A stretch of 64,000 nucleotides of DNA, taken from Candidatus Pantoea bituminis (GTDB lineage: Bacteria > Pseudomonadota > Gammaproteobacteria > Enterobacterales > Enterobacteriaceae). The position numbers and the translations under genes were made by a program. Position 1 is the stretch's first letter. Each line of letters opens with the position of its first letter. Of the stretch, positions 649 to 63,859 are shown piece by piece. Below the pieces are notes generated by a model. The model saw only the letters and a program-made list of their open reading frames with translations, had not been told where the DNA came from and made no database searches. The DNA is taken from contig NZ_JAGTWO010000004.1 in NCBI RefSeq assembly GCF_018842675.1, forward strand, positions 1,302,001 to 1,366,000. Reading direction: 5' to 3'.

Positions 649-1582
649 ATGAATGAATGTGGTCAGATAAGTATTTTAATGGCGTCATATAACGGCGAAG
701 AATTCATTGAGAAACAATTAGATTCGATACTCAAGCAAAGCTACCAAAATTGGGTTTTATATATTTCAGATGATGGTTCGACAGATACTACTCTATCTAT
801 CATTGAAAACTTTTCAACTAAACTACCTTCTGGAAAAGTAATTTTACTGAGAGGCCCTGGAAAGGGTTTTGCAGAAAATTTCCTGAGTATGTTGAGAAAC
901 AAAAATATAAAATCTTCTTATTATGCGTTTGCGGATCAAGATGACATATGGCTTGAAGATAAATTAATGACTGCTGTAAATACATTAGCCAATGTATCGG
1001 AATCTTATACCTATTTATTGTATGGGAGTCGTACAACATTAGTTGACGCTGATGAACAGGTTATAGGATTGTCGCCTCTGTTTAAAAAAGCATAGGGTTC
1101 AGAAACGCGCTTTTACAGAGTTATGCTGGTGGCAATACGATGGTCTTTAATCATCACCTTAAAAGTATATTTGAAAATATGCCAGATGATCTGAAAATAG
1201 TGTCACATGATTGGATTCTCTATATTTTATGCTCTGCATTGAATGGGCATGTCGTTTATGATGAAGTTCCAAAGATACTTTATCGCCAGCATCACAATAA
1301 TTTGGTTGGAAGTAATCAAGGGGTGATGTCTAAGTTAAACCGCCTGAAAAAACTTTTTCAGGGGAATTCAAAGTATGGGCCTTGGTTAATGAAAAGGCAT
1401 TGAATTCAATCTTCGAAAGTATGTCATCTGAAAATAAAAAAATCCTTGTTAACTTTTATAAGGATGGCAGGCGTGGGTTAGTTTATCGTCTGTCTGGTTT
1501 TTTAAATGCAAAGGTATATCGCCAAAGTAGTTTGGAAACGGCCGTTTTCATGATAATGACAATATTCAAAAAATTAGTTTAA
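649..1582 (+). pseudogene. Family 2 glycosyltransferase, interrupted by two frameshifts
   Basis: The N-terminal part (649-1095) carries GT2 marks: ILMASYNGEEF, a DDGSTD nucleotide-sugar motif and FADQDDIW. The frame ends at a TAG just after a run of six A (1084-1089). Reading one base back continues the protein as SIGFRNALLQSYAGGN and on to 1403. A second one-base shift near 1370-1372 continues as VWALVNEKALNSIFES to 1582. Joined, the pieces give a roughly 310-residue rhamnosyltransferase-like enzyme, probably acting on the O-antigen chain. Both lesions look like single missing A residues, so the gene may be intact in the living cell. Confidence 0.75.
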
Positions 1583-1594
1583 ACAGGTATTCTA

Positions 1595-2890
1595 ATGAAA
1601 AGAATTTTTATGGTTCTTGCCCGTTTGGTGTTAAAAATAATTATATATACATATTATGGGTTATTATCACTGCGTGATAGCATAAAGACAAAAAAATATA
1701 ATAATATTAAAATACAGAAAGAGTATAATGGTGGGAAAGTAATGCTTCTCGCTTTATATGAAAAGAAGCAATTGAGAAACGATACGCTCGAGCTTCTAAA
1801 AGCGGCAAGAAAAGAAAATGTTTTTGTAATTGCAGTGAATACATTGAAGTTAGAGCAGGTTAATTACCCAAGTGATCTTGTGGATGTCTATATTGAAAGA
1901 GATAACTACGGTAGAGACTTTGGAAGTTATAAGTCGGGAATGAGTTACTTCATTGATAAAAAAATGGATGCAACTTGTGAAAGATTATTAATTATCAATG
2001 ATAGTGTATTCTTTTCTAAACTTGGGTTAGATGAATTCATTCATTCACTGTTTAATTCTGAAATTGAAGTGTTAGGTTCAACTGAAAATAGCCAACACTC
2101 ACACCATTTAGGTTCATTTTGCATTTCTGTTGCCGGGAAAATAACTCGAGAAGATAAGTTTAAAGCTTTCTGGCAAGATTACAAACTCTCAAACGTTCGC
2201 CCTTTAGTCATTAAGCGTGGGGAGTTCGGGTTGAGTAAAGTTTTAAAGTCACTGACAAGTTCAGAACAGCACTTTAAATCATTATATAACGTTTCTTTTA
2301 TGGAAAAGAAACTGAGTACCGATCATGATTTCCTTGCTGATTACTACTATTACCGACGCGAAGGCGAAAGCTCATGGCATAATAAATCAGTGACTTCAAT
2401 TGTTGAGAAGGATGAGGTTTTATTATCCTATTACAACGCTTATGTTACCGAAAAAGAGATGGAGCCGCGAGCGCTGTTGGCCAGCTCCGTTGAAACAAAT
2501 ACATTCTTGCGTAACGACGGTTCAAAGAAAAAGGAAGTTGATACATTAGATTATTTGACGGTGGTTGAATTTTTAAAATCCAATAATGATACTAGTTCTC
2601 GATATGCCCTGCAGTTTCGTCAACGTTTAATAGGTATTTATTTAAACGAGTTTACGCTTGGCTCTCAAATTCATATCAATTGCCTTGCCTTACATCATTG
2701 CGGATTACCCATCATCAAATTAGATCTTATTTTTCGATGTGTCTGTAATATAAATGACATCATAAAATTGCGTGACCAATTGGACGAGTCGCAGCAAGAA
2801 GAATTTATGACGCTGATGTTATCAAGGTTGTGTGGGGATAAATTCCTTGTGGGTATTAATCGCCTTGCTTATCAATTTGGAATTTTATAA
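1595..2890 (+). CDS. RgpF-like rhamnan synthesis F family protein
   Basis: This 431-residue protein has the RgpF core: VMLLALYEKKQL, then YIERDNYGRDFGSYKSG, then RLLIINDSVFF, and HHLGSFCISV. The family takes part in rhamnose-rich polysaccharide assembly and is common in ABC-transporter O-antigen clusters. An N-terminal hydrophobic stretch (about residues 5-25) could attach it to the membrane. Its TAA overlaps the next start (TAATG), supporting one operon with the exporter genes. The exact linkage made cannot be told. Confidence 0.8.
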   Translation: MKRIFMVLARLVLKIIIYTYYGLLSLRDSIKTKKYNNIKIQKEYNGGKVMLLALYEKKQLRNDTLELLKAARKENVFVIAVNTLKLEQVNYPSDLVDVYIERDNYGRDFGSYKSGMSYFIDKKMDATCERLLIINDSVFFSKLGLDEFIHSLFNSEIEVLGSTENSQHSHHLGSFCISVAGKITREDKFKAFWQDYKLSNVRPLVIKRGEFGLSKVLKSLTSSEQHFKSLYNVSFMEKKLSTDHDFLADYYYYRREGESSWHNKSVTSIVEKDEVLLSYYNAYVTEKEMEPRALLASSVETNTFLRNDGSKKKEVDTLDYLTVVEFLKSNNDTSSRYALQFRQRLIGIYLNEFTLGSQIHINCLALHHCGLPIIKLDLIFRCVCNINDIIKLRDQLDESQQEEFMTLMLSRLCGDKFLVGINRLAYQFGIL

Positions 2891-3689
2891 TGTCGTTTCT
2901 AAAAAATCCGTAGGACTTGATGACTTCTCATCAGCACTGAAAAACTTCCATGTTGTTCGCGTGATGGGCGGACAAGATATCAGAATGCGCTATAAGCGAT
3001 CTAAGATGGGGCCATTTTGGATTACTATAAGCATGGCCGTAATGATAGCAACCATGGGATTAGTTTTCGGTAACTTATTCAAAACAGATGTTAAAGAGTT
3101 TCTCCCTTATTTAACATTAGGGCTAATTACATGGAGCTTTATTCTAAGTTCAATTTCAGAAGGATGTGATGCTTTAATTTCTTCTGAGGGTATTATCAAG
3201 CAACTCCCCGTTCCATTACATGTGCATGTTATGCGTGTAATTTGGAAAAATTTAATTATTTTCTTGCACAATATTGTAATTCTTCCCTTTGTATTATTAG
3301 CTGTGGGGAAAGGGCTGAGTTGGACTGCTTTATTAGCAGTGCCAGGTTTCCTGCTTTTAATCCTCAATTTAACATGGCTATTAATGATCCTTTCAATGAT
3401 CTGTGCGCGTTTTCGTGATATGACACAGATTGTATTAAGTATTATGCAGGTAATATTCTACCTCACGCCAGTAATTTGGATGCCCAAACTTCTTTCACAT
3501 CGTGCTGGCGAATTATTACTTAATTTGAATCCTCTGTATCATCTTATTGATTTGGTAAGAAGCCCTTTGTTAGGCACTATGCCAATGGTAAGTAGTTACA
3601 TTGTGGCGATTGTAATGGCTGTTGTAGGACTGACCGCATCAATTGCCATGACCAGCAAATATAAATATCGCGTTCCATATTGGGTATAG
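2890..3689 (+). CDS. wzm: O-antigen ABC transporter permease (Wzm)
   Basis: The protein has about six hydrophobic segments and the ABC-2 permease opening FHVVRVMGGQDIRMRYKRSKMGPFW. It would export undecaprenyl-linked O polysaccharide with the ATPase encoded next. The expected start is the ATG at 2890, which overlaps the previous stop. From there the frame hits TAG after eight codons because a run of six A (2901-2906) seems one base short. With seven A the start reads MSFLKKSVGLDDFSSALKNF and is continuous. Without that correction the long frame begins inside the upstream gene, which is unlikely to be real. Confidence 0.88.
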
Positions 3690-17789: not shown

Positions 17790-17829
17790 TTTACAAACAA
17801 AATGACATTTATCTACTATATAGGCTTAT

Positions 17830-18611
17830 TTAAAAGTCTGTATCCAGCTTTAACCAAGGGTGACGCATTATCATTTCTATCATAAGCCTTTTAGTCGCTG
17901 GTGCGGTATCTTGTCTAAGCATAGAGATACCATGAACCCTATAGCGACATAATATTTCTGGAACATAAGCCGCAGTCATACCAGCGTCAACGAACTTGCA
18001 CCAGAAATCATAATCTTCCCATCCCCCTCCATATGAGTATATCCCTGAACCTGCGCCCAGGAACGTTTGGATATGAGTGCCATGGCATCAACATAGTTAC
18101 CATGTACAAAATGTCTTTTATTCCATACTTCAGAGTGACCTAATCTAGTAACATCCCCGAAGTGTTCATGCTGAGTGTAAGCCGCATCAAATTCTCTATT
18201 TCTCATGACGTCATAAAGCCGCCCGAGTGCGCGAGGATAGATCATATTATCTGCATCTATCACGAAAACAAGATCTGTGCGAGAGTAATCAAACGCTGTA
18301 TTTCTTGCTTCAGCCAACCCTTGGTTTCTTGAATGCTTAATTAGTGATGCGCGAGCAAATCTGTTGTTATGTATTTCCATCCATTTTTTGACGGCACCAA
18401 CAGAGTCATCTTTAGTTGAACAATCGTCAATAACAATAATTTCAATATACTTATGAATTTGTGCATGTATTGAATCTAAACATTCAGCAACAAACTTTTC
18501 ATAATTAAATAAGCTTACAGCCACAGTAATGCCTTCAACGTGAGCATGCTTTCTATTGATTTTTTCATATATAACATCGAAGTTTACAAGCCGAGAATTG
18601 ATTTTATTCAT
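17830..18611 (-). pseudogene. Family 2 glycosyltransferase with one frameshift near its C-terminus
   Basis: The protein shows the GT2 fold: GITVAVSLFNYEKFVAECLDSI, VIDDCSTKDDS, NQGLAEARN and FVIDADNMIYP. At GYTHMEG the raw frame leaves the family and stops at 17976. With one more G in the run complementary to C18023-18027 it continues as GWEDYDFWCKFVDAGMTAAYVPEILCRYRVHG to a TAA at 17830. That extension is typical GT2 sequence, so the break is probably a sequence error. It is the last gene of a leftward three-gene group and its start overlaps the upstream gene. Confidence 0.8.
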
Positions 18612-19943
18612 GATAATCTCCGCTTTCTACCGTTGTTATGAATTTTACAATTTGTGCTGTTCTGTAGGAATCACTGCTTGGATTGGTCAGCATATCTGTA
18701 GCTTGGCCAATTACTTTTTTGCCATTTCTTTGCCATCTTCTGCTTTCAATAACCAATCTATCAGATTAGGAAGATGCTTTAGTTCATCATGGAAAAAATG
18801 CACATTTGGCTTTAAGTGCGGGTGAGGTAGGCAGTGATCTGATACAACTAGAGCTCCAGAACTCATTCCCTGTCTAACCATCCTGTGCCACTCAAAATAA
18901 GAAAACTCGTCCCTGTGCACATTAAGCGATATTTTGGAAACCCCTGAGAGATGGCCGGCAATACGTGTCAAAGATTGATCGTCGAATCGCGCCCGGATCG
19001 GCCCATAGCGACCTCTGCGGTAATAGATGAAAGAAGGGTATTGGGCAAAAAATGATGCATTTTTGCTAAAGAAAGTTTCTCTTCTTGGGCTCTCGCTGCC
19101 AAAGAAAGAAATATCAATAGGCCTATTATCCCAGCTATCAACCTGAAAATTAAGTGATTTAGCTTCAGGGGGAAGAATTCTAACAAGAGGGTGAAAAATA
19201 TCTTTCTCAATCAACCAGTTATTTCTGATTTCCGCGCCTGGCTCAAGATGCATGCTTGGTATTTCAGCGTTATTAAAAAGTTGTGCAGCTTGAGGGGAAA
19301 TATCAAAAACACCTTTAGCGGAAAGAATAGATGATATGCTTTTAGCAAACCATTGAGTTTGCATTTGTTCAGTATTCCAAACGTAAGATGTCCTTAAAAC
19401 ATCTTCAGTCATCCATATCACACCGCGACCTAAAGCAAAAAATTCATGGGGAGCAACAAATATAGAAAGTTGACTTCTAAGCTGGACTTCATAATTTTCG
19501 TCCCTTACTTGAACATCTACCCCAGCTCTTTTGAGAACAACTGCTAAATCTAGAGCAAGTTCCTGCATAAAAATGTTGCCTAACGAGCTAACAAATATGT
19601 CAGCCTTAGGGTATTTTTTTGAAAAATCTGTAAAAGCTTGGGCATGCTCGCTTGAGTTTAAAACAAGCTCGGGATGATCGAGTGCTTTTTCATCAAGGTT
19701 AGAAAGGATTCCCAGTACGCGTGCTATCTGCTCTCTTTTAAATAAAGTCCGGCCCTCAATAGCACCAAAATTTACTGCATGCCAGCTCGGGCTGATGTTA
19801 GCTGCAGCAACATCAGGGTGCATATTTTTATATAGCTGCTCAGAAAAAATTCTTAATTTGGATATTCTCTTAACCGCTATCGACTCTTCATCATTAGAAG
19901 AATTGTTGCTTGACGTTGAATTTAATGTGATTTTCTGATTCAT
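18604..19943 (-). CDS. CgeB-like (GT1-type) glycosyltransferase
   Basis: The sequence has an N-terminal non-catalytic part with YKNMHPDVAAANISPSWHAVNFGAIEGR, a repeat-like motif seen in some large glycosyltransferases, and a C-terminal nucleotide-sugar-binding half (ISFFGSESPRRETFFS, ISLNVHRDEFSYFEWHRMVRQGMSSGALVVSD). I prefer the start MNQKITLNSTSS over one 24 codons upstream, which reads into the neighbour. The raw frame stops at 18711 after a run of T (18715-18720 on the plus strand). One more base there gives VIGQATDMLTNPSSDSYRTA and a TAA overlapping the next gene by eight bases. Acceptor and sugar are unknown. Confidence 0.72.
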
Positions 19944-19959
19944 ATAAGTTATACCTAAG

Positions 19960-21240
19960 TTATTTAAAGGTTTTGCGAAATGTTTTCCGAACAAACTTAG
20001 GCAATTTGGACGCAATAATATTAATTTTTGTCATTAACTTCCATGTTGTTGAACCGAATATTTCGGACAGTCTTCCGTTTGATATTTCAAGCTCTTTTCT
20101 CAAGTTGTTTATTTCAAGTTCATTCGGGGTGTTTTGTAAAATTTGTCCTAGGTTTGTTTTGTGAACGAGTTGACCGCCTAACTCTGCTCTGATTCTTGCT
20201 TCATTGGCTGAGTGATTTATCTCAGCTGCTTCGAACTGTTCTTCCCAGTCATTAAGTTTTATTTGAAGCTTGCGTTCAGAGTTTTCACGCAGTGCCATTT
20301 GCTCAGCCAAGCTAGCTTGCGAGTCTTTCAGAACTTCAGTTAGGCGATCAATCTCTTCTTGCTGATTTTTTATTGTCTGAGAATCTTCGCCACACTCTTT
20401 CAAAGAGTGCTTAAAGGAATTAGTATCATTTGCTAAGCTTGATGAAGAGTTAATGAACTTCAAATTTAAAAATCTAGCTTTCATTGAATGTTCATATATT
20501 GCCTGGTTTTTATAATAGTCATTTGGCATCATTATGACATTCTTTTTAAGAAAAGCGGAAAGAATAGATATATGGAGCCTGTCAGTTAAAACACTTTCAT
20601 ATGACTGTATATAAGATGCCATGCTAAGAGTAGCATAATAACAGAATTTAGGGTTCTTCCAGTAATCTCCGTTCCAGGACAAAGATAAGTCAATATTTTC
20701 ATCGCTAATTGCAATATTTTTAGATGATTCACCATCGGTTCTTAACGCAAAGAGAACGCCTTCGCCTTTCTCGAAAAGCTCAGAAAAATGTTCATCATCG
20801 AGGTAAAATGTTACATCATGCGATAAATGAGTTTTATTTTCGTTAGCTCCGTTTAGTAAAATCAATTCATAGGAAACAGGCTCACGGCAGAAAATTTCTA
20901 GATTATTATGCGTTTCTGCAATTATTTCTTTGTAACCAACTACTGTGTGTGGAAGCAAAATTATTCTTTCGTTTTTTCTGTGCCGCCAAATGATTTTTGC
21001 AACGTCTTCATATTTACCTTCAATGAGATTTCCACCTCCACCAATGATAACAATTTTATCATCAACCTTTTCATCCTGAGAGTATGATGTGTATGAGATG
21101 TTATATTTTTCGAATAAGGTGTAAGTTGCATATGCTATAAATCCATCGCCAGCATTACCTGATTTTGGAAAAAAAGCCACATGTTTACCCTCAAGGGTTT
21201 TTAAAGTTTCAATAAAACGGTCGTGTTCGAGACTTTGCAT
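19960..21240 (-). CDS. Polysaccharide pyruvyltransferase-like protein with C-terminal coiled coil
   Basis: The first 270 residues resemble the ExoV-type pyruvyltransferase family: FFPKSGNAGDGFIAYATYTLFEKYNI, VIIGGGGNLIEG, ILLPHTVVGY and YESVLTDRLHISILSAFLKK. These enzymes add ketal pyruvate to sugars. Residues about 285-400 form a charged heptad-like coiled coil (QEEIDRLTEVLKDSQASLAEQ), followed by the short GSTTWKLM motif common at the ends of surface-glycan glycosyltransferases. It is the first gene of the leftward three-gene group and could recruit the two glycosyltransferases through the coil. Confidence 0.72.
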   Translation of the reverse strand: MQSLEHDRFIETLKTLEGKHVAFFPKSGNAGDGFIAYATYTLFEKYNISYTSYSQDEKVDDKIVIIGGGGNLIEGKYEDVAKIIWRHRKNERIILLPHTVVGYKEIIAETHNNLEIFCREPVSYELILLNGANENKTHLSHDVTFYLDDEHFSELFEKGEGVLFALRTDGESSKNIAISDENIDLSLSWNGDYWKNPKFCYYATLSMASYIQSYESVLTDRLHISILSAFLKKNVIMMPNDYYKNQAIYEHSMKARFLNLKFINSSSSLANDTNSFKHSLKECGEDSQTIKNQQEEIDRLTEVLKDSQASLAEQMALRENSERKLQIKLNDWEEQFEAAEINHSANEARIRAELGGQLVHKTNLGQILQNTPNELEINNLRKELEISNGRLSEIFGSTTWKLMTKINIIASKLPKFVRKTFRKTFK

Positions 21241-21367: not shown

Positions 21368-22605
21368 TTAATATTTCAAGGTTAAAGAGTTTCTTAGCAT
21401 GCTGCATGTGAATGCTACAAGACTTATATCAAAAAGAAATAATATTCTTTGTTCTGAAGCATAGACTGTCGGAGAAACCCCTACAGCTACTGTTACTAAT
21501 AAAGATAACGATAAAAAAACAAAGCCAATGTAGCTCTCAATGTTTTTCTCTAAACAAAACCAAAGCATGGAGGCAATAGATGCTAATGAGAAAAAATAAG
21601 ATGTATATATTGAAATTTCATTCCAGTTATTAGGTTCTATAGTGAATATAGCAGAAAAGTATTTATGGAATACGTCGCTTGGGTTATTCGTCACTAAAAA
21701 GAATGCGTTAAAAAGGCAAAGTGTGCTAAAAGCTATAATGTCTTGAAAGCCAAATGGTTTTTTGTGCATAATTGCTTTAAATAAACACGTAAATGATGCA
21801 GAAAACAATAAGAAGTTCGTTCTATCTTTGATGTGAGCCTGCACTCTATCCATGCCTAAGCTAACCTTTTGAAAAAAACTATAACCTTGAATTTCAGGCA
21901 TGTAGTGATACGCTTCAATAATGTAACGGATATGGTTGCCAGGGCTTAGAAATAAGATGGCAGAAAAAAATAGCGAGAAAGAAAAAAGATAAAGCTGAAA
22001 GTTGTATAAGTTCTAGTAGAGATTATGAATAGAATTGAAGCTATAACAATACATAATGCAGGTTGTTCAGTGCTGCAAGCTATAAATAATGCTATTAAAG
22101 ATAAAGTCTTTTGGTAAAGTCCTGTTTGTTTTTGTCTGAGTAGTATGTCAACTGCGTATAATCCCATTGATACGGGTAGTAGATAGTTATATGCTCCAGT
22201 AATCCACCACATAGAGTCATTGGCTACTGATGGTGACATGATCATGATGAGACCTAAGGCTAATGAAATGCCTTTAATAGAGCTAATGCTTTTTCTAAGC
22301 GTAAGTGACCATATTGAATAAGCGCATAATAATATGCACATAGGGATCATTAATTTCCAGAACCAATCGTAATTTATTGTTAATAATAGCAATGCTTCAA
22401 TAGCATATCTACCAGACCATTTTAGGTATCTAAAGCTGAAAAATTCAAAAAATGATTTATTATCCAAGGCATGTTTAAAGTATTGATCATCTTGATCTGG
22501 TCTCATAGTTAACCCTAGAGAAACTAAGATTAATAATGAAATAATAAATGCTATTAGATACATATCTGTCGATATGTTTTTATTTTTAGTGGCAAACATA
22601 TTCAT
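21368..22605 (-). pseudogene. DUF6056-like multi-spanning membrane protein (serotype-type GtrC), one frameshift
   Basis: The gene encodes a hydrophobic protein of about 410 residues with ten or more membrane segments. It opens MNMFATKNKNISTDMYLIAFIISLLI and has the family pattern MRPDQDDQYFKHAL, FRYLKWSGRYAIEALLL and SMWWITGAYNYLLPVSM. The raw frame stops near 21946. One more base in either of two A tracts (21982-21987 or 21964-21970) gives SAILFLSPGNHIRYIIEAYHYMPEIQGY and on to 21368. In its position after gtrB it is likely the specificity glycosyltransferase that transfers sugar from bactoprenol phosphate to the O antigen in the periplasm. Confidence 0.7.
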
Positions 22606-22900
22606 CCTTCGAAATAACATCTTTGTTTATGATATTTAGCGTTATAGTGGGTTTTTTTATGCTAGTGTCTGATAAAGATAAGGCGCCATAAAAACCATAT
22701 CTTGCGCGTTCATTGTTTAACTTGAAAGCAGTACTTACATCCGGACGAGTGGTTGTCTTCGAAGGGATGACATACTCTTTATTATTTATTTTTACATTTA
22801 TAATTAGATGTCCTTTTACAGGGTATGTATTGTTAAATACCCATCCACGAACAAAAATCTTGTTGTCATTAAAGGTACATTCATCGATGAAAAATTTCAT
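22586..22900 (-). CDS. 104-aa beta-rich protein of unknown function in a gtr cassette
   Basis: The protein reads MKFFIDECTFNDNKIFVRGWVFNNTYPVKGHLIINVKIN in overlapping pieces and looks like a small beta-sandwich with no signal peptide or membrane segment. I do not recognise a family with certainty. Its end overlaps the start of the DUF6056-like gene, so the two are probably translated together. It may be a carbohydrate-binding accessory or a broken-off domain of the membrane glycosyltransferase. Confidence 0.55.
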   Translation of the reverse strand: MKFFIDECTFNDNKIFVRGWVFNNTYPVKGHLIINVKINNKEYVIPSKTTTRPDVSTAFKLNNERARYGFYGALSLSDTSIKKPTITLNIINKDVISKDEYVCH

Positions 22901-28188: not shown

Positions 28189-28327
28189 ATGGGGCATGCG
28201 TGGGGCAAAAAAAATTGCCGCAATATCTCCCGCTCTTAGCTAACTGGACGGATCACATTGCGGCAATGCTCTGCCTGTTACCTGAAATTGCGCACAATAA
28301 CTCGCTCTTAAAGTTACTCCAATGTGA
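28189..28327 (+). other. Possible 5' part of a truncated rightward gene, with an 11-bp inverted repeat
   Basis: From the ATG at 28189 the frame reads MGHAWGKK. If the run of eight A (28207-28214) lacks one base it continues LPQYLPLLANWTDHIAAMLCLLPEIAHNNSLLKLLQ to the 9-bp junction repeat, where it is cut. I do not recognise the protein. The same DNA holds a perfect inverted repeat ATTGCCGCAAT (28214-28224) and ATTGCGGCAAT (28257-28267). Confidence in coding is low. Confidence 0.25.
28319..28327. repeat. 9-bp direct repeat CCAATGTGA, right copy
   Basis: This copy joins the inserted segment to the N-terminal half of the split gtrC. Removing 26104-28327 restores an unbroken gtrC reading across the junction (Ser-Ser-His-Trp-Tyr-Leu-Ser). 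Confidence 0.75.
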
Positions 28328-28776
28328 ACTAATAATGTTTACAAACCCCTCCGCAACGTTAGGCATCAAGATAATATAAAATGCTAATGCTAATGCTAAT
28401 GCGAATCGATATTTTATCTCAATGAAATTCATTCTCTTTGAAAGAATGAATCCTATTAAAAAGCATCGAAGGAGTACAGCAATTACATTTGCAGACAAGG
28501 CTGCATAAGAAAGCCAAAAAAAATTGAAATTCCATACGTTAAGCGTGAGATAGTCTGATAATAGCCATTTTGGGGCAGTATAAGAAATGCCCAAAACCCA
28601 TTATTATAGATCCCAGCCATCCATACCCTACCATCTTCAGCCCATGGCTGAGCATGCATAATAATATCTGGCCTGCGTAATGCAAACAGAATAAATGCTA
28701 TTAACATGAAACCAAATAATAGAGGTAAGCTAAGATATTTACTATTTTCTTCCTTATCATCTCTTATTAAATTCAT
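28319..28776 (-). pseudogene. N-terminal half of the split gtrC-type gene
   Basis: The frame starts MNLIRDDKEENSKYLSLPLL and follows the intact paralogue: RRPDIIMHAQPWAEDGRVWMAG, LPQNGYYQTISRLTYGIS. At a run of eight A (28516-28523, T on the coding strand) one missing base shifts the frame; the continuation is LSYAALSANVIAVLLRCFLIGFILSKRMNF. It ends at the 9-bp repeat with Ser-His-Trp. Together with 25270-26103 it made a protein of about 420 residues. Confidence 0.8.
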
Positions 28777-38717: not shown

Positions 38718-39982
38718 TGCGTTTGGGTGTGATAGCTGACGACTTCACCGGTGCGACCGATATCGCCAGCTTTCTGGTGCAAAACGGTCTTGCTACTATT
38801 CAGTTTAACGGCGTGCCGGATAACAGCGATGCGCTGGACGCGCAGGCAATTGTGATTAGCCTGAAGTCACGTTCTTGCCCGGTTGAGCAAGCCATTGATC
38901 AGTCGCTGGCTGCTTTGAAATGGCTGCAACAGCAAGGCTGCGAACGTTTCTACTTTAAATATTGCTCCACGTTCGACAGCACAGCACAGGGCAATATCGG
39001 CCCGGTGACCGATGCACTGTTAGCGGCGTTGGATGAAACGCAAACGGTGATCTGCCCGGCGCTGCCGATTAATGGCCGCACGGTTTATCAAGGGCATCTG
39101 TTCGTTGGCGAGCAATTGTTGTCCGAATCGGGTATGCGTCACCATCCGGTCACACCGATGACCGACAGCAATTTGTTGCGATTAATGGCGCGTCAGGCAA
39201 AAGGCAAAGCAGGGCTGATTGCCGCACCCATCCTCGACCAAGGCGCAGCGGCGGTGCGCAGCAAGCTTGATGAACTGCGTCAGCAAGGCATTAACTATGT
39301 GGTGATCGATACCTTAAATGAGCAGCATCTGCTCACCCAAGGTGAAGCGCTGCGCGATATGCGTTTGGTTACCGGTGGTTCAGGTTTAGCGATCGGCCTG
39401 GCGCGTCAATGGGCGCAAGCAGGCAGCGATCGCCGCGAAGCAGAAGAGGCGGGGCGTCCGCAAGGCAGCCGTGCCGTGGTGATTTCCGGTTCCTGTTCGC
39501 AGATGACCAACTGGCAGGTCGCGACTTATCGCCAACAAGCGCCAGCCCAGGAAGTGTTAGTTGAACGCTGTCTTGACGATGCAGAAAGCTACGCGCAACA
39601 GCTGTGTGACTGGGTTGATGCAAACAGCCATCAATCGTTAGCGCCGCTGTTATTCGCCACCGCAGATGCGCAACAGCTGCAAGCTATTCAGCAGCAATAC
39701 GGAGCACAACGCAGCAGTGAAGCGGTGGAATCACTGTTTGCCGCGGTAACGCGAGAATTAAAAGCACGTGGCTGGCAGCGTTTTATTGTTGCGGGTGGTG
39801 AAACATCTGGCGTGGTAGCGCAAAGCCTGGGCGTGACCGCTTTTCACATCGGCCCAACTATTTCGCCTGGCGTGCCATGGGTACGCGACATCCAGCAGCC
39901 GCTTTCACTGGCGCTGAAGTCCGGTAATTTTGGTGATGAGCAGTTCTTCCGCCGCGCACAAACGGAGTTTTCCCATGTCTGA
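38714..39982 (+). CDS. otnK: 3-oxo-tetronate kinase
   Basis: The 422-residue four-carbon acid sugar kinase (YgbK, DUF1537) phosphorylates the 3-oxo-tetronate made in the previous steps. Its start (MRLGVIADDFTGATDIASFL) and the ATP-site sequence VAGGETSGVVAQSLG are characteristic. It overlaps otnC by eight bases. Confidence 0.95.
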   Translation: MMRLGVIADDFTGATDIASFLVQNGLATIQFNGVPDNSDALDAQAIVISLKSRSCPVEQAIDQSLAALKWLQQQGCERFYFKYCSTFDSTAQGNIGPVTDALLAALDETQTVICPALPINGRTVYQGHLFVGEQLLSESGMRHHPVTPMTDSNLLRLMARQAKGKAGLIAAPILDQGAAAVRSKLDELRQQGINYVVIDTLNEQHLLTQGEALRDMRLVTGGSGLAIGLARQWAQAGSDRREAEEAGRPQGSRAVVISGSCSQMTNWQVATYRQQAPAQEVLVERCLDDAESYAQQLCDWVDANSHQSLAPLLFATADAQQLQAIQQQYGAQRSSEAVESLFAAVTRELKARGWQRFIVAGGETSGVVAQSLGVTAFHIGPTISPGVPWVRDIQQPLSLALKSGNFGDEQFFRRAQTEFSHV

Positions 39983-40618
39983 GCAATTTTCTTCGAGCGA
40001 ACAGCAAGCCCGTCTTGAGATGGTGAAGTTGGGTGCCTCCTTTTTCAGCGCGGTTACGCGACAGGATCTGCCGGTAATCTGTCGCTGTTGCTGGAGGATG
40101 GCAATCTGCTCGCTACACCGACCGGTTCTTGCTTAGGTGAACTGGATGGTGAACGCTTATCAAAAGTGACGCTGGAAGGCGAATGGATTTCGGGCGACAA
40201 GCCTTCAAAAGAGATCGCGTTTCACCGCGCGCTCTATCTGAATAATCCCGACTGCAAAGCGGTGGTGCATCTGCACAGCCATTACCTGACGGCGCTCTCC
40301 TGTCTGCAAGGATTGGATAGCGAAAACTGTATTCGACCGTTCACGCCTTATGTGGTGATGCGGGTTGGCGATGTGCCGGTAGTGCCCTATTACAAGCCGG
40401 GCGATCAGCGTCTGGCGGACGATTTGGCGCAACTGGCGGGAAAATATCGCGCCTTCCTGCTGGCAAATCACGGGCCGGTGGTGGTCGGTAAATCGCTGCG
40501 TGAAGCAGCAGACAACACCGAAGAACTGGAAGAGACCGCACGGCTGATGTTCACGCTGGGTGACCGTGCCATACGTTATCTGACAGATAGCGAAGTGGCG
40601 GAATTAAGGAGCCGATAA
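39975..40618 (+). pseudogene. otnC: 3-oxo-tetronate 4-phosphate decarboxylase (class II aldolase), one frameshift
   Basis: The gene starts MSEQFSSSEQQARLEMVKLGASFF and its main part is a class II aldolase (PSKEIAFHRALY, VHLHSHYLTALS, NHGPVVVGKSL). After ASFF the raw frame leaves the family at T40041-40045. With one more T it reads QRGYATGSAGNLSLLLEDGNLLATPTGS, the conserved phosphate-binding region. It removes CO2 from 3-oxo-tetronate 4-phosphate to give dihydroxyacetone phosphate. The break is probably a sequence error, since the rest of the operon is well kept. Confidence 0.88.
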
Positions 40619-44611: not shown

Positions 44612-45792
44612 ATGGCTATCAGCGACACTAAACTTCGTTCTATCTATGGTAAACCATATGACGGCCCATCTGAAATAACTGATTCTGACGGCCTTGGAAT
44701 ACGCGTTACTCCACGAGGCATCATCAACTTTCAGTATAGGTATCGTTTCAATGGTAAGCAGCACCGGTTGGGGATAGGGAAGTATCCGGCAGTAACGTTG
44801 AAGGACGCAAGAATCAAAGTCGGTGACCTCAAAGAAGTTTTAGATCGTGGGATTGACCCTCGCCATTCCGATGTTTTTCACCGCACAACCTCTAAACCAA
44901 CCGTTAAGGATTGCCTTACTTACTGGCAGGAAACTTACGTTGACGTAAACCTCCGTGAAAAGACAAAGGCTTTATACAATTCGACAATCATTAAGCACAT
45001 GACAGATGCTTTCTCAGGCATCCCCATCGAGGATATTCCTGTCCGGGCATGGGTTGAACGATTTACGGATGAAGAAAAGATTAACCCACGGCGTGCGCGA
45101 GAGTTGCTTGTTCAGATGAGGTCAGCAATAGGCTGGTGCATCAGAAGGCAGTTCATCAACGATTGTAGTCTGATGAAGATCAACCCAAAGGATGTAGGCT
45201 CCAAAGCTGCTGTTGGTGAAGTAACCCTTTCATATAACCAGCTGGCTAAGATATGGCTGGCTATAGAACGCAGCAGGGCATCAACGTCTAACAAGCTTCT
45301 GCATCAAATGCTGATGCTGTACGGCGCGCGTAACAGCGAGCTGAGGTTATCCGTTAAAAAGAATTTGATCGCGAAGAGGGGCTTTGGACGGTACCGGCAG
45401 AAAAAAGCAAAATGAAAAAGGTCATTCGTCGGCCTATCTTCAGCCAGATAGAACCCTTCCTGGATAAAGCCACGATGACTTATGGTGATGTTTTATTTCC
45501 CGGACCTGACCTGAAAACGTCTATGTCTATCTCTGGCGCAAATCGTTATCTGGGAAGAATTGAGAAGTCTGTTGGAATAGGTGAATTTACTGCACATGAT
45601 TTCCGCAGGACGTTAGCCACCAGATTGTCAGAAGAAGGAGTTGCCCCGCATGTTGTTGAGAAAATGCTGGGGCATGATTTAGGCGGTGTGCTGGCGGTAT
45701 ATAACAAGCATGACTGGATAGCTGAACAACGTGCTGCATATGAGCTATACGCAGAAAAGATATTCTGGCACGTCAAGAAACTCTCTGATTGA
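44612..45792 (+). pseudogene. int: Tyrosine integrase of the P4/DUF4102 type, one frameshift
   Basis: The N-terminal DUF4102 domain (LGIRVTPRGIINFQYRYRFNGKQHRLGIG) is followed by an SAM-like domain and the catalytic domain: Arg in YGARNSELRL, HDFRRTLATRL, and Tyr in VYNKHDW. The raw frame stops at 45415 because the run A45356-45360 seems one base short. With the extra A it reads VKKEFDREEGLWTVPAEKSKMKKVIRRPIF without a break. The gene inserts and excises the prophage at a site next to sbcB. Confidence 0.9.
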
Positions 45793-50947: not shown

Positions 50948-50985
50948 GGTCGCGACTAAATCAACGTGTGTGGAGAATCAATCGC

Positions 50986-52234: not shown

Positions 52235-52245
52235 CAGGAGTAAAC

Positions 52246-54586: not shown

Positions 54587-54615
54587 GGTTAAAAACAGTG
54601 TGTGGAGAAGAGAAC

Positions 54616-56513: not shown

Positions 56514-56534
56514 AGTGTGTGGAGAGGATTAACT

Positions 56535-56951: not shown

Positions 56952-57010
56952 CAAAACCAGCTTTAATCTGCTATGAGTTGTCACTACGCACTGACACATA
57001 ACATTCTAAA

Positions 57011-57035
57011 CCTCGCCAACCGGCGGGGTTTTTTT
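57011..57035 (+). terminator. Late leader terminator (tR'-like)
   Basis: CCTCGCC-AACC-GGCGGGG followed by seven T lies 60 bases behind Q. This is the expected place for the terminator that Q overrides. Confidence 0.85.
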
Positions 57036-57524: not shown

Positions 57525-57767
57525 ATGAGTATCGATATGAGCAAACTGGCATCAGGCGCGGCTTACGGCGCATCAGCCGGGACGATTGCCAACGGTCTTT
57601 TGACCAGGCTGAGCCCCGATGAATGGAGTGCTGTTGGCGTTCTGGCCGGTATTCTGGTCGCGCTACTGACGCTCGGTATCAACTGGTATTACAAACGCAA
57701 AGCAACACTCGCGCAGATTCAGGCGCTTCAACGCTGGCCTACCGCACCAGACCTGACTGAGGAATAA
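57525..57767 (+). CDS. Holin (class II type)
   Basis: The 80-residue protein MSIDMSKLASGAAYGASAGT has two hydrophobic segments (about 6-27 and 38-55, VGVLAGILVALLTLGI) and a basic tail. It forms lesions in the inner membrane for lysis. A GGAGG precedes the ATG. Its place just ahead of the SAR endolysin fits a pinholin-type holin. Confidence 0.85.
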   Translation: MSIDMSKLASGAAYGASAGTIANGLLTRLSPDEWSAVGVLAGILVALLTLGINWYYKRKATLAQIQALQRWPTAPDLTEE

Positions 57768-57770
57768 ACT

Positions 57771-58280
57771 ATGGGGATGTCAAACAGCCTGCGCAACACG
57801 CTAATAGCTGCTGCGGGCGGCGGCTCCATGCTTATCGCCACAGTATTTCTTGGTGGTAAAGATGGAGTAGAGGGTCGGGTTTATGAGCCTTACAAAGATA
57901 TAGTTGGTGTCTGGACAGTCTGTGATGGTCATACCGGAACCGACATCATCAAGGGCAAGAAGTACACCGACCGAGAATGTGATCGACTGTTATGGAATGA
58001 CCTTCAGCCGGTTAAGAAGTCTGTAGACAGCATGGTCAGGATTCCTTTGGGCGAGTATCAACGGGCAGCACTCTATAGCTTCACTTACAACGTTGGTTCA
58101 AGTGCTTTCTCAAAATCAACGCTCCTGAAAAAGCTTAACGCTGGTGATGTTGATGGTGCGTGTGAAGAGCTTCGCCGCTGGATTTACGCTGGCGGACAGA
58201 AATGGCGCGGCCTGATGAACCGTCGCGACATGGAGCGTTCAATGTGTCTGGCGGAAAGCAAAGATGACCTTAAAGGCTAA
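57771..58280 (+). CDS. SAR endolysin (phage lysozyme, GH24)
   Basis: The 169-residue protein has an N-terminal weakly hydrophobic signal-anchor ([18 protein letters not shown]) and the GH24 active-site run [23 protein letters not shown] with Glu, Asp/Cys and Thr. It is released from the membrane to cut peptidoglycan. It overlaps Rz by 17 bases. Confidence 0.93.
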
Positions 58281-58734
58281 GACTTCAATATTTCCCGCTC
58301 TGGTGGCTGTTATAGCAATCGTGACAGCCACGTCAGTAGCTCTTTATTACCGTGGCAACGCCATTGATTACAAAGCTCAGCGAGATAAATCCAAAGACGC
58401 GCTGGAGCTGGCGAACGCCACTATCAGTGACATGCAGACACGCCAGCGAAATGTTGCTGCGTTAGATGCGAAATACACACAGGAACTAGCGGATGCTAAA
58501 GCGACTATCGATCTGCTTCATGACGACGTTATTGCTGGCAAGCGTCGGTTGCAGCTCAACGCAACCTGCCCGGAACAATCCTCCACCGGCTCCGCCAGCC
58601 TGGATGATGCAGCCAGCCCCCGACTTACTGACTCCGCTCAACGGGATTATTTCACCCTTAGAGAGCGTATCGAAACAGCCGGAAAGCAGATAGCCGGGTT
58701 GCAAGAATATATCAATGAGCAATGTCTAAATTAA
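58264..58734 (+). CDS. Rz-type spanin, inner membrane subunit
   Basis: The 156-residue protein has one N-terminal membrane helix ([18 protein letters not shown]) and a long helical periplasmic part. With Rz1 it fuses the inner and outer membranes in the last lysis step. It lies directly after the endolysin gene. Confidence 0.88.
58493..58693 (+). CDS. Rz1-type outer-membrane spanin lipoprotein (nested in Rz)
   Basis: In the +1 frame inside Rz, [22 protein letters not shown] has a lipobox (ASVGC) and a Pro-rich part ([10 protein letters not shown]). This nested layout is typical for Rz1. The mature lipoprotein is about 45 residues. Confidence 0.85.
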
Positions 58735-58746
58735 GCAGAGGAAGGT

Positions 58747-58983
58747 ATGAGCGAAGCAAAGCCGCAGGATGGCAGTACCGTAAAGGGTTATCGAACATTA
58801 ACGCCTGGCGATATTGAAGTGATGAACCGACTGAAAGATGTGAGCCGCCACTTTCTGAATCTGCTGGACACATCAAAAGAAACTGGTGCAGACCCGCGCT
58901 GGATTGCCATGGCTAAAACGGAGATGCAGAGAGCTTGCATGTTCGCCTGTCGAGCAGTGGCTCAGCCAGATGACGATTGCTAA
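58747..58983 (+). CDS. Acb2-like (DUF7681) small phage protein, candidate anti-CBASS sponge
   Basis: The 78-residue protein contains VKGYRTLTPGDIEVMNRLKDV, then DPRWIAMAKTEMQ and RAVAQP. These match my memory of the Acb2 family: GYR-x-L, MN-xx-K, D-x-RW and a terminal RAVAQP. Acb2 forms hexamers that bind cyclic oligonucleotides and so block CBASS and related host defences. It has no signal peptide and follows Rz by 12 bases, with a GAGGAAGG site. The family match is by pattern only. Confidence 0.65.
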   Translation: MSEAKPQDGSTVKGYRTLTPGDIEVMNRLKDVSRHFLNLLDTSKETGADPRWIAMAKTEMQRACMFACRAVAQPDDDC

Positions 58984-59235
58984 TCATCCCAAGGCGCATT
59001 TACGAGTGTGCCTGATGATGAAAAAAGTGGCCCATCCCTGGACCAAGACATGGTAGGAGTTCATTCTGTTTTTAGGTTTTACATAAAATAAATTAGCTAA
59101 CGCTCAGGCGACAACAAGCGTAAGCGGTTGCTTTTTTATGCGATTAAGAATGCTCCGACAAGGGATAACGGTTAGCCACGCTTTGAAGCGTCGCGAAGCT
59201 GGTATAATCGCACCTCAATAAAAAAGAGGTGGTTT
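58984..59235. other. Intergenic stretch, 252 bp
   Basis: I see no gene. It has an AT-rich centre and a short GC stem with a T run near 59110-59140 that may be a weak terminator. Confidence 0.4.
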
Positions 59236-59469
59236 ATGTTAGATCCTAAGCCGTGCTTTATGGTGCTTGCCTATGATTCAAATGATATGCCAGGAAATTG
59301 CAAAGATATTATGGGCTACGCCCGTAACACAGAAGAAGTCGAAAGGCTTATACATACAGCTAAAAATAACGCGCTTTATTCGTATGACCACATTGAAACT
59401 GTCGATGCTCATTTAGACAAAGTTTTAATAACCATTCGTCGGAACAAAGATCAAGAATGGCATTCATAA
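59236..59469 (+). CDS. Hypothetical phage protein (77 aa)
   Basis: The protein MLDPKPCFMVLAYDSNDMPG contains GYARNTEEVERLIHTAKNNA and follows an AGAGGTGG site. It is small, mixed alpha/beta and acidic. I do not recognise a family. Position in the cargo slot between lysis and packaging genes suggests an accessory role. Confidence 0.6.
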   Translation: MLDPKPCFMVLAYDSNDMPGNCKDIMGYARNTEEVERLIHTAKNNALYSYDHIETVDAHLDKVLITIRRNKDQEWHS

Positions 59470-59532
59470 AGTTCACAAAATGAATGTGATGTCAGACTAA
59501 CCGCCTCCGGGCGGTTTTTTATTGGAGTGAAT

Positions 59533-59763
59533 ATGACATATCAAACCGAACAGCAACGTAAGCGCCAGCGTGAGGAAGAAGAACGCCGTCGCCGTCATCA
59601 AAGCAACACTGGCTCAAGCAGCGACCTTATGAACCCGCTAAACCCAATCAGCCCTATTTACGTCGGTAACGACTACAGCAGCTCAGGCAGCTCCGATTCA
59701 TGCAGTGGCAGCTATGACTCAGGCAGTTCGTCCGACAGTGGCGGCAGTTGCAGTAGCGATTAA
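59533..59763 (+). CDS. Low-complexity Arg/Glu- then Ser/Asp/Gly-rich phage protein
   Basis: The protein MTYQTEQQRKRQREEEERRR starts with a strongly charged helix and ends in a Ser/Asp/Gly/Cys-rich tail of about 30 residues (SSSGSSDSCSGSYDSGSS). GGAG stands five bases before the ATG. The function is unknown; the acidic, disordered tail could bind basic partners or metals. Confidence 0.6.
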   Translation: MTYQTEQQRKRQREEEERRRRHQSNTGSSSDLMNPLNPISPIYVGNDYSSSGSSDSCSGSYDSGSSSDSGGSCSSD

Positions 59764-59908
59764 CACAGGCCGCCTTTCGAGGTGGTTTTATTTTGTTCTG
59801 AAAACTGCATTCACTGAGTTCACTTTTCAGCATAAACACAATGAATCATCGGCTGGTGGTCTCACCATTGCCGAGGATGAAATTCATCTGACCAGCAGGA
59901 AATGCTGA

Positions 59909-60199
59909 ATGGCTAGCAATTCACCCTGGCACAACCTCTATAACACGAAGCGCTGGTATCGCCTGCGCTATCACCAGCTTCAGAAGCAGCCACTATGCGA
60001 GTTTCACCTCAGACGTAATCAGGTGATATCCGCATCCATCGTTGACCACGTCAAACCTCACAAGGGTGATGACGCACTGTTTCATGATCCCGACAACCTC
60101 CAGAGCTTATGCAAGCGCTGCCACGACTCAGTGAAGCAACGCATGGAGAAGGGTGGAACAGTGACGGAGTTCGACGATGAAGGCCGTGTTATCTGGTAA
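59909..60199 (+). CDS. HNH endonuclease next to terminase
   Basis: The 96-residue protein has WYRLRYHQLQKQPLCEFHLR, VDHVKPHKGDDALFHDPDNLQSLCKRCHD, the usual HNH core. HNH proteins beside TerS help cut DNA at cos in HK97-like phages. Confidence 0.92.
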   Translation: MASNSPWHNLYNTKRWYRLRYHQLQKQPLCEFHLRRNQVISASIVDHVKPHKGDDALFHDPDNLQSLCKRCHDSVKQRMEKGGTVTEFDDEGRVIW

Positions 60200-60211
60200 C
60201 AGGAGCATCGA

Positions 60212-60421
60212 ATGAAAAACCTTAAGATTGAATACCGCGACGGTAAGCTGATTGAGTTCAGCATTGATGGCATACAGTTCAATTCAGTAACAGCAATCGG
60301 GTTCAGCCATGAAGTTGGCGAGTCACTGCCATCAGTCAGCATGTCACTCCCGCTTGGGGTCGGGAAAACGCTGGTCCCTGCCAGCCTGTCTCGTGAAAAC
60401 CTGCAATTCATCGAGAAATGA
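60212..60421 (+). CDS. Hypothetical phage protein (69 aa)
   Basis: The protein MKNLKIEYRDGKLIEFSIDG looks beta-rich and contains SLPLGVGKTLVPASLSREN. It follows an AGGAG site. I do not recognise a family. Confidence 0.55.
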   Translation: MKNLKIEYRDGKLIEFSIDGIQFNSVTAIGFSHEVGESLPSVSMSLPLGVGKTLVPASLSRENLQFIEK

Positions 60422-60503
60422 GATTGGTTAGCATTTGCGTTGGGGTTGGCTCACCATTTTGGTGCATCTTGATGTAAATGAGAAATATTATCATTTAAAA
60501 TTT

Positions 60504-60557
60504 GCGCGGTATGGGGGGAGGGCAAAAACTTCAGGCCCAAAACCACCAAGACCGCGC
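60504..60557. other. Candidate cos region ahead of terS
   Basis: GCGCGGT (60504-60510) and ACCGCGC (60551-60557) form an inverted repeat around a G-rich core (GGGGGGAGGGCAAAA). Packaging sites of cos phages often lie between the HNH gene and terS. The exact cut cannot be seen. Confidence 0.4.
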
Positions 60558-60601
60558 CCTCAGTCTTTTTTTAAAAACGTCCAGAAAAAAAGGAAAAAGT
60601 A

Positions 60602-61036
60602 ATGGCACAGCGAGGCAGAAAGTCTCTGGCTGCGACCTCTGCTGTCTCGCTACCGGCACTGGCTGAAAGCAGGTTGCAGCCGTCCGTTCATCTCAGCGAC
60701 CCGGAAATAAATGTCTGGGTCCGGCTCGTTAATGACAACCCGGCAAACTCATTCACTGAAACGCATCGCGACATGATGGAGATGTACTGTCGCCATGTGG
60801 TGCAGTCCCGTTTGCTCACCACTCAAATCGAAGATTTTGAAATGGAGTGGCTGTCACGGGAAGACGGACTTAAGCGCTATGACAAATTGCTGACGATGCG
60901 TGAGCGGGAAGTGCGTTCGGCATCTTCTCTGGCAACGCGTCTGAGAATTACCCGGCAGGCAACCGCCGATCCTAAAACGGTGGGCCGTGCAAACAACAAT
61001 CTTGCGCGAGATAAAAAGCCCTGGGAGATTGATTGA
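60602..61036 (+). CDS. Terminase small subunit (P27 family)
   Basis: The 144-residue protein starts MAQRGRKSLAATSAVSLPAL and has RETHRDMMEMYC-type helices (FTETHRDMMEMYCRHVVQSR) with a C-terminal RLRITRQATADPKTVGRA. It recognises phage DNA for packaging. It precedes terL by 12 bases. Confidence 0.88.
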   Translation: MAQRGRKSLAATSAVSLPALAESRLQPSVHLSDPEINVWVRLVNDNPANSFTETHRDMMEMYCRHVVQSRLLTTQIEDFEMEWLSREDGLKRYDKLLTMREREVRSASSLATRLRITRQATADPKTVGRANNNLARDKKPWEID

Positions 61037-61048
61037 GGCTTTTAGCTG

Positions 61049-62581
61049 ATGGTTAAAAAAATTCTGACAAGAGCCGAAAGAAATATTGCCTGGTGTGAAA
61101 AGCACATCCTGATCCCGGAAGGAAAGTTTGTCGGTCAGCCGCTGAAGATGGCGCCCTTTATGAAGGATGACTTCAGGGCAATCTTTGACAACGTGCACGG
61201 CACGCGTCGCGGGATCATAACGCGGGGGCGCAAGAACGCCAAAACGGTTGAAACCGCCATGCTGATGCTGCTCTATCTAGTAGGGCCGGAGGCCGCGCAC
61301 AACTCCCAGCTTTATTCCGCAGCTCGCTCCCGCGATCAGGCCGCAATCCTGTTTAATCTGGCTTCGAAAATGTGCCGCATGAACCCAACGCTCATGCAGT
61401 ACGTGGCTATCAAGGATTCGGCAAAAGAGATTCACTGCCCTGATCTGGGGTCTTACTACCGCGCACTGAGTGCTGAAGCCACCACGGCCTACGGTTTTTC
61501 TCCCCGGTTTGTTGCTCATGATGAGCTGGGTCAGGTACGTGGCCCACGCGATCCTCTTTATGAGGCACTGGAAACGGCTACCGCCGCGCAGGAAAACCCG
61601 ATTTCCATCATCATCAGTACGCAGGCACCTGATGCAAGCGACCTGCTCAGCCTGCTGATTGATGACGGTCTGACCGGCGCTGACCCGCGAACGGTGGTCA
61701 GGATAGATACCGCGCCGGAAGATATTGATCCGTTTTCGGTTGAGGCCATCCGCTTAGCCAACCCGGCGTTTGACGTGTTCATGAATCAGCAGGAAGTGCT
61801 GGACATGGCTGCGAGCGCCAAACGCCTGCCATCACGTCAGGCAGAGTTTGAAAACCTCGTCCTTAACCGCCGCGTTGAAGCAAAAAGCCCGTTTGTCAGC
61901 CAGACGGTCTGGCACATGAACAAGGAAGAGCCGGACGATCTGACCGGTAAAACCGTATGGGGAGGTCTTGACCTGTCAAGCGTGTCTGACCTTACGGCTC
62001 TGATTCTGACGTCAGCTAAAGGCGATGTGCACAGTAAGTTCTGGTTGCCTGCTGAAGGGCTGGCTGACAAGGCCCGTAATGACCGCGTGCCTTATGATAT
62101 CTGGGCAAAACAGGGCTATCTAAACACCACGCCGGGTAAAGCTATTGAGTATGCCTTTATCGCAAAAGAGCTGAGAAAACTTTTTGATAACTGCAACGTC
62201 AGGGCAATCGCCTTTGACAGATACAACATGCGTTTCCTTCGTCCGCACCTGATTGATGCCGGGTTTACCGAAGCAGAGCTGGAACGCTTCGTGGAGTTCG
62301 GGCAGGGCTTTGTTTCTATGTCCCCGGCACTCCGCGAGCTGGAAACAAAACTTCTTGGCGCTCAGTTGAAGCACGGTAATCATCCGATTCTGGAAATGTG
62401 CGCCAAAAACGCAACGGTCATTACCGATCCCGCAGGCAACCGCAAGTTTGTGAAGGGTAAATCCAGCGGCAGGATCGACGGCATGGTTGCGCTGGCGATG
62501 TCCATTGGCGCGCAGAACAGTGACGAGGTGGAAGAGCAGGGCGACGTTGACGACTTCATTTACAACTTTTTGAGCGTTTAA
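61049..62581 (+). CDS. Terminase large subunit
   Basis: The 510-residue packaging ATPase/nuclease has the Walker A-like TRGRKNAKTVETA, the Walker B-like FVAHDELGQV and the nuclease Asp in WGGLDLSSVSDLTAL. It is of the YmfN/HK97 type. It is followed after one base by the portal gene. Confidence 0.94.
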   Translation: MVKKILTRAERNIAWCEKHILIPEGKFVGQPLKMAPFMKDDFRAIFDNVHGTRRGIITRGRKNAKTVETAMLMLLYLVGPEAAHNSQLYSAARSRDQAAILFNLASKMCRMNPTLMQYVAIKDSAKEIHCPDLGSYYRALSAEATTAYGFSPRFVAHDELGQVRGPRDPLYEALETATAAQENPISIIISTQAPDASDLLSLLIDDGLTGADPRTVVRIDTAPEDIDPFSVEAIRLANPAFDVFMNQQEVLDMAASAKRLPSRQAEFENLVLNRRVEAKSPFVSQTVWHMNKEEPDDLTGKTVWGGLDLSSVSDLTALILTSAKGDVHSKFWLPAEGLADKARNDRVPYDIWAKQGYLNTTPGKAIEYAFIAKELRKLFDNCNVRAIAFDRYNMRFLRPHLIDAGFTEAELERFVEFGQGFVSMSPALRELETKLLGAQLKHGNHPILEMCAKNATVITDPAGNRKFVKGKSSGRIDGMVALAMSIGAQNSDEVEEQGDVDDFIYNFLSV

Positions 62582-62582
62582 A

Positions 62583-63859
62583 ATGGCAGATACCGATTAC
62601 AGCATTGACCTGCGAACGCGGTCGCCTTTCTGGGCGCGTATGGCTTCCATCCTGACCGGTGGCCGACTGGTCTCCCTGACAGTGGTTCACAGATGGCAGG
62701 CACATCGGCTCACGGCACCGTGGGCGAGTCCGTTGTTACTGATGAGCGCAACATGCAAATCAGTACGGTCTGGGCCTGCATCCGGCTTATCTCGACCGTG
62801 ACAGCTTCGCTGCCGCTTGACGTATACGAAACCGTTAACGACCAGCGCAAGAAGGTAGACAAGAGTAACCCGCTGGCAAAACTTCTTCGGTTCCGGCCCA
62901 ACAACTTTATGACCGCGCTTGAGTTCCGCGAAGCCATGACGATGCAGCTTTGCGCCTACGGCAACGCTTACGCTCACGTTGAACGTAACAGTGTGGGAGA
63001 TGTTATCAGCATAGTGCCGCTGATGAGCGCCAACATGGATGTCCGGCTCAGCGATAACGGTAAAGAGGTTATTTACCGCTACAAGCGCGACACGGAATAC
63101 GCAGATTTCAAACCAAAAGAAATCTTCCACCTCAAAGGATTCGGCTTTAGCGGGCTGGTCGGGCTTTCTCCGTTAGCCTTCAGCGCGAAGTCAGCAGGCG
63201 TTGCTATTGCAATGGAAGACAATCAGCGGGAATTTTTTGCTAACGGCGCTAAATCACCTCAGATACTCATGACTGACGGAAGGGTGCTGACTAAAGAGCA
63301 GCGCGGTCAGCTTGAAGAAAACTTCAAAGAGATTGCGGGTGGGCCCGTCAAAAAACGCCTCTGGATTCTGGAAAGCGGTTTTACCACACAGTCCATCGGT
63401 ATTTCCCCGCAGGATGCGCAGATGCTGGAGGCGAGAAAGTTTCAGGTTGCTGAGCTGGCGCGGTTCTATGGTGTTCCACCACATCTGGTAGGTGATGTCG
63501 AGAAAACCACATCATGGGGTAGCGGCATTGAGCAGCAGAACCTCGGATTCCTTCAGTACACCCTGAAGCCTTATCTGGATCGCTGGGAATACAGCATTGA
63601 GCGCTGGCTGGTGAAGGATTCGGATCAGGGCAGGATTCACGCTGAGCACAACCTTGACGGTCTGCTGCGGGGTGATTCTGCAAGCCGTGCCGCGTTTATG
63701 CAGGTCATGGTCAATACAGGCATTCGCACCATCAACGAAGTGCGCAGGCTCGACAATCTGCCACCGCTACCCGGTGGTGATGTCGCTACCCGGCAGTCCC
63801 AGAACATACCTATTACCGAACTCGGCACCAACAAAGAGCCCCGCACTGACGGGGCTTAA
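62583..63859 (+). CDS. HK97-type portal protein, with one frameshift near the start
   Basis: The portal forms the DNA entry ring of the capsid. The main part (from 62693) has NMQISTVWACIRLISTVTASLPL, FHLKGFGFSGLVGLSPL and VPPHLVGDVEKTTSWGSGIEQQ. The true start MADTDYSIDLRTRSPFWARMAS at 62583 is in another frame. One more C at 62674-62676 joins them as LVSPDSGSQMAGTSAHGT. Probably the gene is intact. Confidence 0.9.

Follow-up and report, generated by a model that had tools for sequence, protein, structure and literature searches.

The one-base losses that split conserved genes in the genome of Pantoea sp. EnvD (P. bituminis), the strain described in PMC9022320, are almost certainly consensus errors of its Oxford Nanopore R9 assembly. 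We read them as sequencing errors because the same losses recur far off in the genome, even in essential genes. The sequence analysed, referred to here as the window, is a stretch of 64,000 nucleotides (contig C4, positions 1,302,001–1,366,000) from an assembly of 5.22 Mb in 5 contigs, with a completeness of 95.96% and, across two sampled 400-kb blocks, a GC content of 51.5%. According to the available text of PMC9022320, EnvD was sequenced on an ONT MinION (SQK-LSK109, R9 flow cell, Guppy 4.4.2) and assembled with Flye at 155x, and its public reads (SRP316834) are likewise ONT. In a word search of that text, polish, medaka, racon and illumina were absent, a silence which suggests that the EnvD assembly rests on R9 nanopore reads and received no short-read polishing. 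EnvD is the nomenclatural type of P. bituminis and the sole strain of the species in GTDB release 207 (PMC10665919).

An earlier note on this DNA had claimed that at least ten genes in the window each lack exactly one base, usually in a homopolymer, and that all of these changes are losses. The eight homopolymer runs for which it gave coordinates are all present, with positions and lengths as claimed (Table 1). Using the ORFs of relatives as references and comparing only the frames of local matches, we found the pieces of one family in order, in two frames and with a net shift of −1, at 10 of 11 sites; the claim was not borne out at the remaining one, wzm. The true run is probably longer at each single window site. 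The excess of breaks over chance rests on the two-block test described below, for which the window alone is insufficient.

Table 1. Genes in the window claimed to be split, with the homopolymer run claimed at each site (each found) and what the sequence holds. Coordinates are those of the window.
Feature	Coordinates	Strand	Run	Observation
Family 2 glycosyltransferase (at 649)	649..1403	+		Three frame pieces, two breaks, each −1
wzm, polysaccharide export ABC permease	2832..3689	+	A2901–2906	NF050109 positions 10–272 of 272
Family 2 glycosyltransferase (GT2)	17800..18611, low end approximate	−	C18023–18027	Break of −1 near 18.0 kb
CgeB-like glycosyltransferase	18600..20015, low end approximate	−	T18715–18720	Break of −1 close to C-terminus
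DUF6056-like protein	21368..22620	−	A21982–21987	Break near 22.0 kb; first piece matches phrog_26225
Truncated gtrC duplicate (gtrC half)	28253..28776	−	A28516–28523	Two frames; phrog_19534 positions 16–82 and 84–148 of 425, in two ORFs
otnC, 3-oxo-tetronate 4-phosphate decarboxylase	39979..40618, low end approximate	+	T40041–40045	NF043034 positions 33–205 of 205; break of −1 near start
Tyrosine integrase (int) of prophage	44612..45792	+	A45356–45360	Two frames; phrog_1 positions 91–315 and 336–457; PF13356, PF00589
HK97-type portal protein	62580..63859, low end approximate	+	C62674–62676	N-terminal part in different frame (−1)

The portal protein showed a shift of −1 in 120/120 references (the best 120 of 2,882), the best of which matched with residues 1–31 in one frame and 32–425 in the next. 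At the GT2 gene near 18 kb, 119 references gave 117 frame changes, 116 of them equivalent to −1. For the glycosyltransferase at 649, whose first ORF carries PF00535 across residues 8–114, one of five reference ORFs (258 aa) spans both breaks with −1 at each, and the remaining four (28–29% identity) match the first piece only. The CgeB-like gene, with homologues of 445 aa that are 72% identical, gave −1 at the claimed site in 9/69 references; 58 were single-piece, and two had other offsets elsewhere. Frame changes at otnC appeared in 30 of the 81 reference ORFs, all 30 being −1; the other 51 were single-piece and nearly all began at residue 12 or later, and since these matches lack the first residues, the break lies near the start of the gene. 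Several of the reference loci for otnC come from one genome that was entered twice. For int and the gtrC half, the step of −1 was derived from ORF coordinates. The integrase gene stands near one end of a prophage (window 44612–63859), which carries its terminase and HK97-type portal genes toward the end of the window.

The claimed break near the start of wzm was not supported by comparison. All five true references (34–38% identity) are single-piece, and one of them already matches the body frame at 2844, upstream of the claimed site. The ten reference ORFs first assigned to wzm proved on recount to be five wzm and five wzt-like neighbours, and only the five wzm were counted. The one point in favour of a break is that the sole ATG start, which overlaps the preceding stop, lies in a different frame. 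A search of 295 genomes gave no close wzm reference (41 with a match, EnvD included; best other match 38% identity). Two further candidates were rejected: the +1 suggested near 32.4 kb is a start extension of the puuR ORF and no gain, and a frame change near 31.85 kb is also an ORF start extension. The puuR and puuD ORFs overlap in this region (window 31849–33176), and puuR is called longer in four reference ORFs, so that it looks like a frame gain.

The gtrC half is a truncated duplicate and no normal gene, whatever its frame. It corresponds to the N-terminal part of gtrC and lies between the full-length copy (419 aa, 26882–28141) and gtrB, within a gtrA-gtrB-gtrC O-antigen glucosylation cluster (window 26882–30233). 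For the DUF6056-like gene, the three reference ORFs comprise two true references and a gtrB-like neighbour; both true references (24–32% identity) match in the same two frames, and a shift of −1 was computed for one. A second gtrB-like gene (23045–23953) adjoins the DUF6056-like gene and is 74% identical to a relative's protein, which also matches the window's gtrB at 28.9–29.8 kb (76%). A second gtr-type cluster (window 21368–23953) may have the DUF6056-like protein as its specific transferase, a role we propose because the same gtrB-like/DUF6056-like pair occurs in the relative's locus L216.

To place the window sites against the rest of the genome, we compared two 400-kb blocks of contig C4, one around the window and one at 3.232–3.632 Mb, 2 Mb away, with the corresponding syntenic blocks from the relatives G042 and G032. 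Each reference was an ORF of one relative, free of overlap with the other references and intact in another relative; in the EnvD tests, 17 and 15 genes without a match and 6 and 8 partial ones were dropped. An excess of one-base losses, which the earlier note had suggested looking for beyond the window, was found in both blocks. EnvD had 47/252 and 38/223 genes broken, or 85/475 (17.9%) with 95 events. With the relatives as targets, 1/258, 3/259, 2/214 and 0/210 genes were broken (6 of 941 gene tests), in control sets that were required to be intact in EnvD and so tilt to shorter genes, and in relatives of unspecified platform. These counts supersede a first pass (55/389 in EnvD; controls 6/338 and 3/367), which contained overlapping shadow ORFs, hence the use of non-overlapping references. 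Among the 95 events, 88 equal one lost base (81 exactly −1) and seven equal one gained. The claim that all changes are losses thus holds at the listed window sites and fails in the genome blocks, where gains also occur, fewer than losses. The event density in the tested genes was 0.18/kb (95 events in 514 kb of reference genes), against 0.17/kb in the window (about 11 claimed sites in 64 kb, a denominator that includes non-coding DNA). The window is an ordinary stretch for the EnvD genome.

The pattern tracks the sequencing platform. EnvH (JAGTWN, P. haifensis), the second genome of PMC9022320, shares with EnvD the study, flow cell type and assembler but belongs to a different species (ANI 83%), and its break rate is similar: along one 80-kb stretch, 16/64 genes were broken and 16 of the 21 events were exactly −1, with 14/62 broken among the matching EnvD genes. 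M. mediterraneensis, a close relative whose SPAdes-style record title suggests a short-read origin, had only 2/61 genes broken in one 80-kb stretch, whereas 12/59 of the matching EnvD genes were broken.

The losses concentrate in homopolymers, as the earlier note had proposed, for the most part: 54 of 81 isolated one-base losses in EnvD touch a target run of at least four bases, compared with about 5% under a random-base null, while 27 do not, and in the window the portal run is only three bases long. The effect rises with run length. Reference A/T runs of 6, 7 and 8 bases were shortened by one in 7/53, 4/9 and 1/1 cases in EnvD and in 0/56, 0/6 and 0/1 cases in the control G032; at lengths 4 and 5, A/T runs showed no clear excess (3/711 and 1/212 in EnvD versus 0/835 and 2/248 in the control). 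Few G/C reference runs were available, with 2/12 shortened in EnvD versus 0/19 in the control at length 5, and 0/2 versus 1/3 at length 6. Long runs are also missing from the assembly. Per 800 kb, EnvD has 7 A/T runs of at least 8 bases versus 41 and 44 in relatives, despite its higher A+T content, and 13 G/C runs of at least 6 bases versus 38 and 59. At target runs of at least four bases, losses outnumber gains by 75 to 6. Overall, EnvD shows 149 losses and 51 gains and the control 30 losses and 19 gains; one-base gains are thus raised in EnvD as well, mostly outside runs.

A seeming excess of purine words such as AAGAA at gaps outside reference runs raised a strand-linked process as a candidate, which was rejected since losses per run are alike by gene-strand base: 39 losses fell at A runs (729 A runs of at least five) versus 19 at T runs (440), giving no gene-strand bias. 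The AAGAA-type words are probably lysine codons that form longer A runs in EnvD. At the same gaps, neither CCWGG (2/128 versus 2.6 expected) nor GATC (7/128 versus 6.9 expected) was enriched.

Breaks in EnvD are not confined to surface and phage genes and include genes of core metabolism and information processing. A family search with 30 of the 85 broken genes, each of the 30 lying in the core block, assigned 25 to a family at the thresholds applied. By HMM search, rpoB is a full-length single piece in 56/61 genomes of the genus, GroEL in 59/61 and GlmM in 57/61; each is in two pieces in EnvD, where the frame-split rpoB lies at C4:3614571–3618565. Also broken, and among the 25 assigned to a family, are plsB, nusA, murB and panK (pantothenate kinase). 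In E. coli, rpoB, groEL, glmM, plsB, nusA, murB and pantothenate kinase are all essential. Elsewhere in the genus, a housekeeping gene is in two or three pieces in G001 and G033 (rpoB), G034 (groEL), and G035 and G004, the last being EnvH (glmM). Similar sequence errors may be present in further public genomes.

Homopolymer under-calling in a long-read assembly, the cause put forward in the earlier note, is therefore supported by the excess in both blocks, the rise with run length, the breaks in essential genes, the shared pattern in EnvH, its near absence in M. mediterraneensis, and the ONT R9 and Flye platform. EnvD shows a bias toward one-base losses, dependence on run length, missing long runs, spread across the genome in the C4 blocks and breaks in essential genes, as expected of an artefact. 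In the proposed mechanism, R9 signal would be read as 5- or 6-mer events, such that a run longer than about five bases would give a flat signal and its length would be underestimated in most reads. The consensus would then keep the short run whatever the depth, and 155x would probably be no remedy for a systematic error of this kind; each shortened run inside a gene would shift the frame by −1. Under-calling in homopolymers alone leaves uncovered the losses that touch no run of at least four and the portal run of three. Losses outside runs are, as a minority at least, known for the platform from the Kastor paper (PMC12007338). In the account given there, base calling resolves R9.4 signal into 5- or 6-mer events, and false deletions arise where the length of a homopolymer is uncertain; in MinION assemblies, they are most frequent after four to five equal bases and at A/T above G/C, and a few occur at bases that are not repeated. 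EnvD resembles the assemblies of that source in its preponderance of apparent deletions, the errors there being mostly false deletions that affect homopolymers of two to eight bases and favour A/T over G/C, and in scale, one example there having 23.3% pseudogenes before correction against the share of broken genes in EnvD (85/475); it differs in that raw reads and further strains were used there, whereas EnvD is judged from the assembly alone, uncorrected. The Homopolish paper (PMC8011154) likewise describes systematic nanopore consensus errors that are usually left uncorrected, but it presents a correction tool, whereas the EnvD sequence was used here as deposited.

Real mutation offers other ways to lose single bases. 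A mismatch-repair mutator would lose bases in homopolymers, and the concentration of losses in runs fits such a strain. In EnvD, however, mutS is uninterrupted, its single 872-aa open frame spanning the full family model, and the C-terminal domain of mutL, the only part compared, falls within an open frame of 564 aa. Moreover, selection in a living mutator should spare essential genes, whereas rpoB, groEL and glmM are split; to judge by their essentiality in E. coli, a cell could not bear breaks in rpoB, groEL, glmM, murB, plsB and nusA together. The ratio of losses to gains at runs of at least four also speaks against a mutator, as does the similar rate in EnvH, a different species sequenced in the same way, and we hold this explanation to be highly improbable. 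Broken essential genes would be accounted for if real breaks were compensated at the runs by slippage of RNA polymerase or the ribosome, which is known from AT-rich insect symbionts. But with 5.2 Mb and a balanced base composition in the sampled blocks (51.5% GC), EnvD is no reduced symbiont, a third of the isolated one-base losses (27/81) touch no run of at least four, and the contrast between the close relative (2/61) and the same-platform relative (16/64) follows the sequencing; rescue by slippage has a negligible probability.

The window sites might also be real pseudogenes or phase-variable tracts, set apart from a background of errors. In nature, decay and switching are commoner in O-antigen and phage genes than in core genes. 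Glycosyltransferase and phage genes account for several of the sites, and the gtrC half would be a truncated duplicate even with its frame restored. Yet the window's rate of 0.17/kb is close to the 0.18/kb of the tested genes, and therefore no extra cause is needed for its sites. The affected genes include otnC, a metabolic gene that is open in relatives at the loci examined, and the breaks extend to core metabolism and information genes, which phase-variable loci would not explain. Decay or switching particular to the window is accordingly very unlikely, and there is a similarly slight chance that one O-antigen glycosyltransferase or gtr-cluster tract is truly switchable, a real phase-variable gene hidden among artefacts.

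Consensus error in the R9 assembly thus remains our reading of the one-base losses. Our literature searches turned up no paper pointing out that EnvD has such frame breaks. Its multilocus typing used five genes, according to the available text of PMC9022320, and one of them, rpoB, is frame-split in the sequence examined here. Findings on EnvD that rest on a broken frame are to be discounted. The apparent gene breaks of EnvD are most likely sequencing mistakes rather than biology, and counts of pseudogenes, core genes or lost pathways taken from this genome would mislead, with 85 of 475 conserved genes reading as broken.
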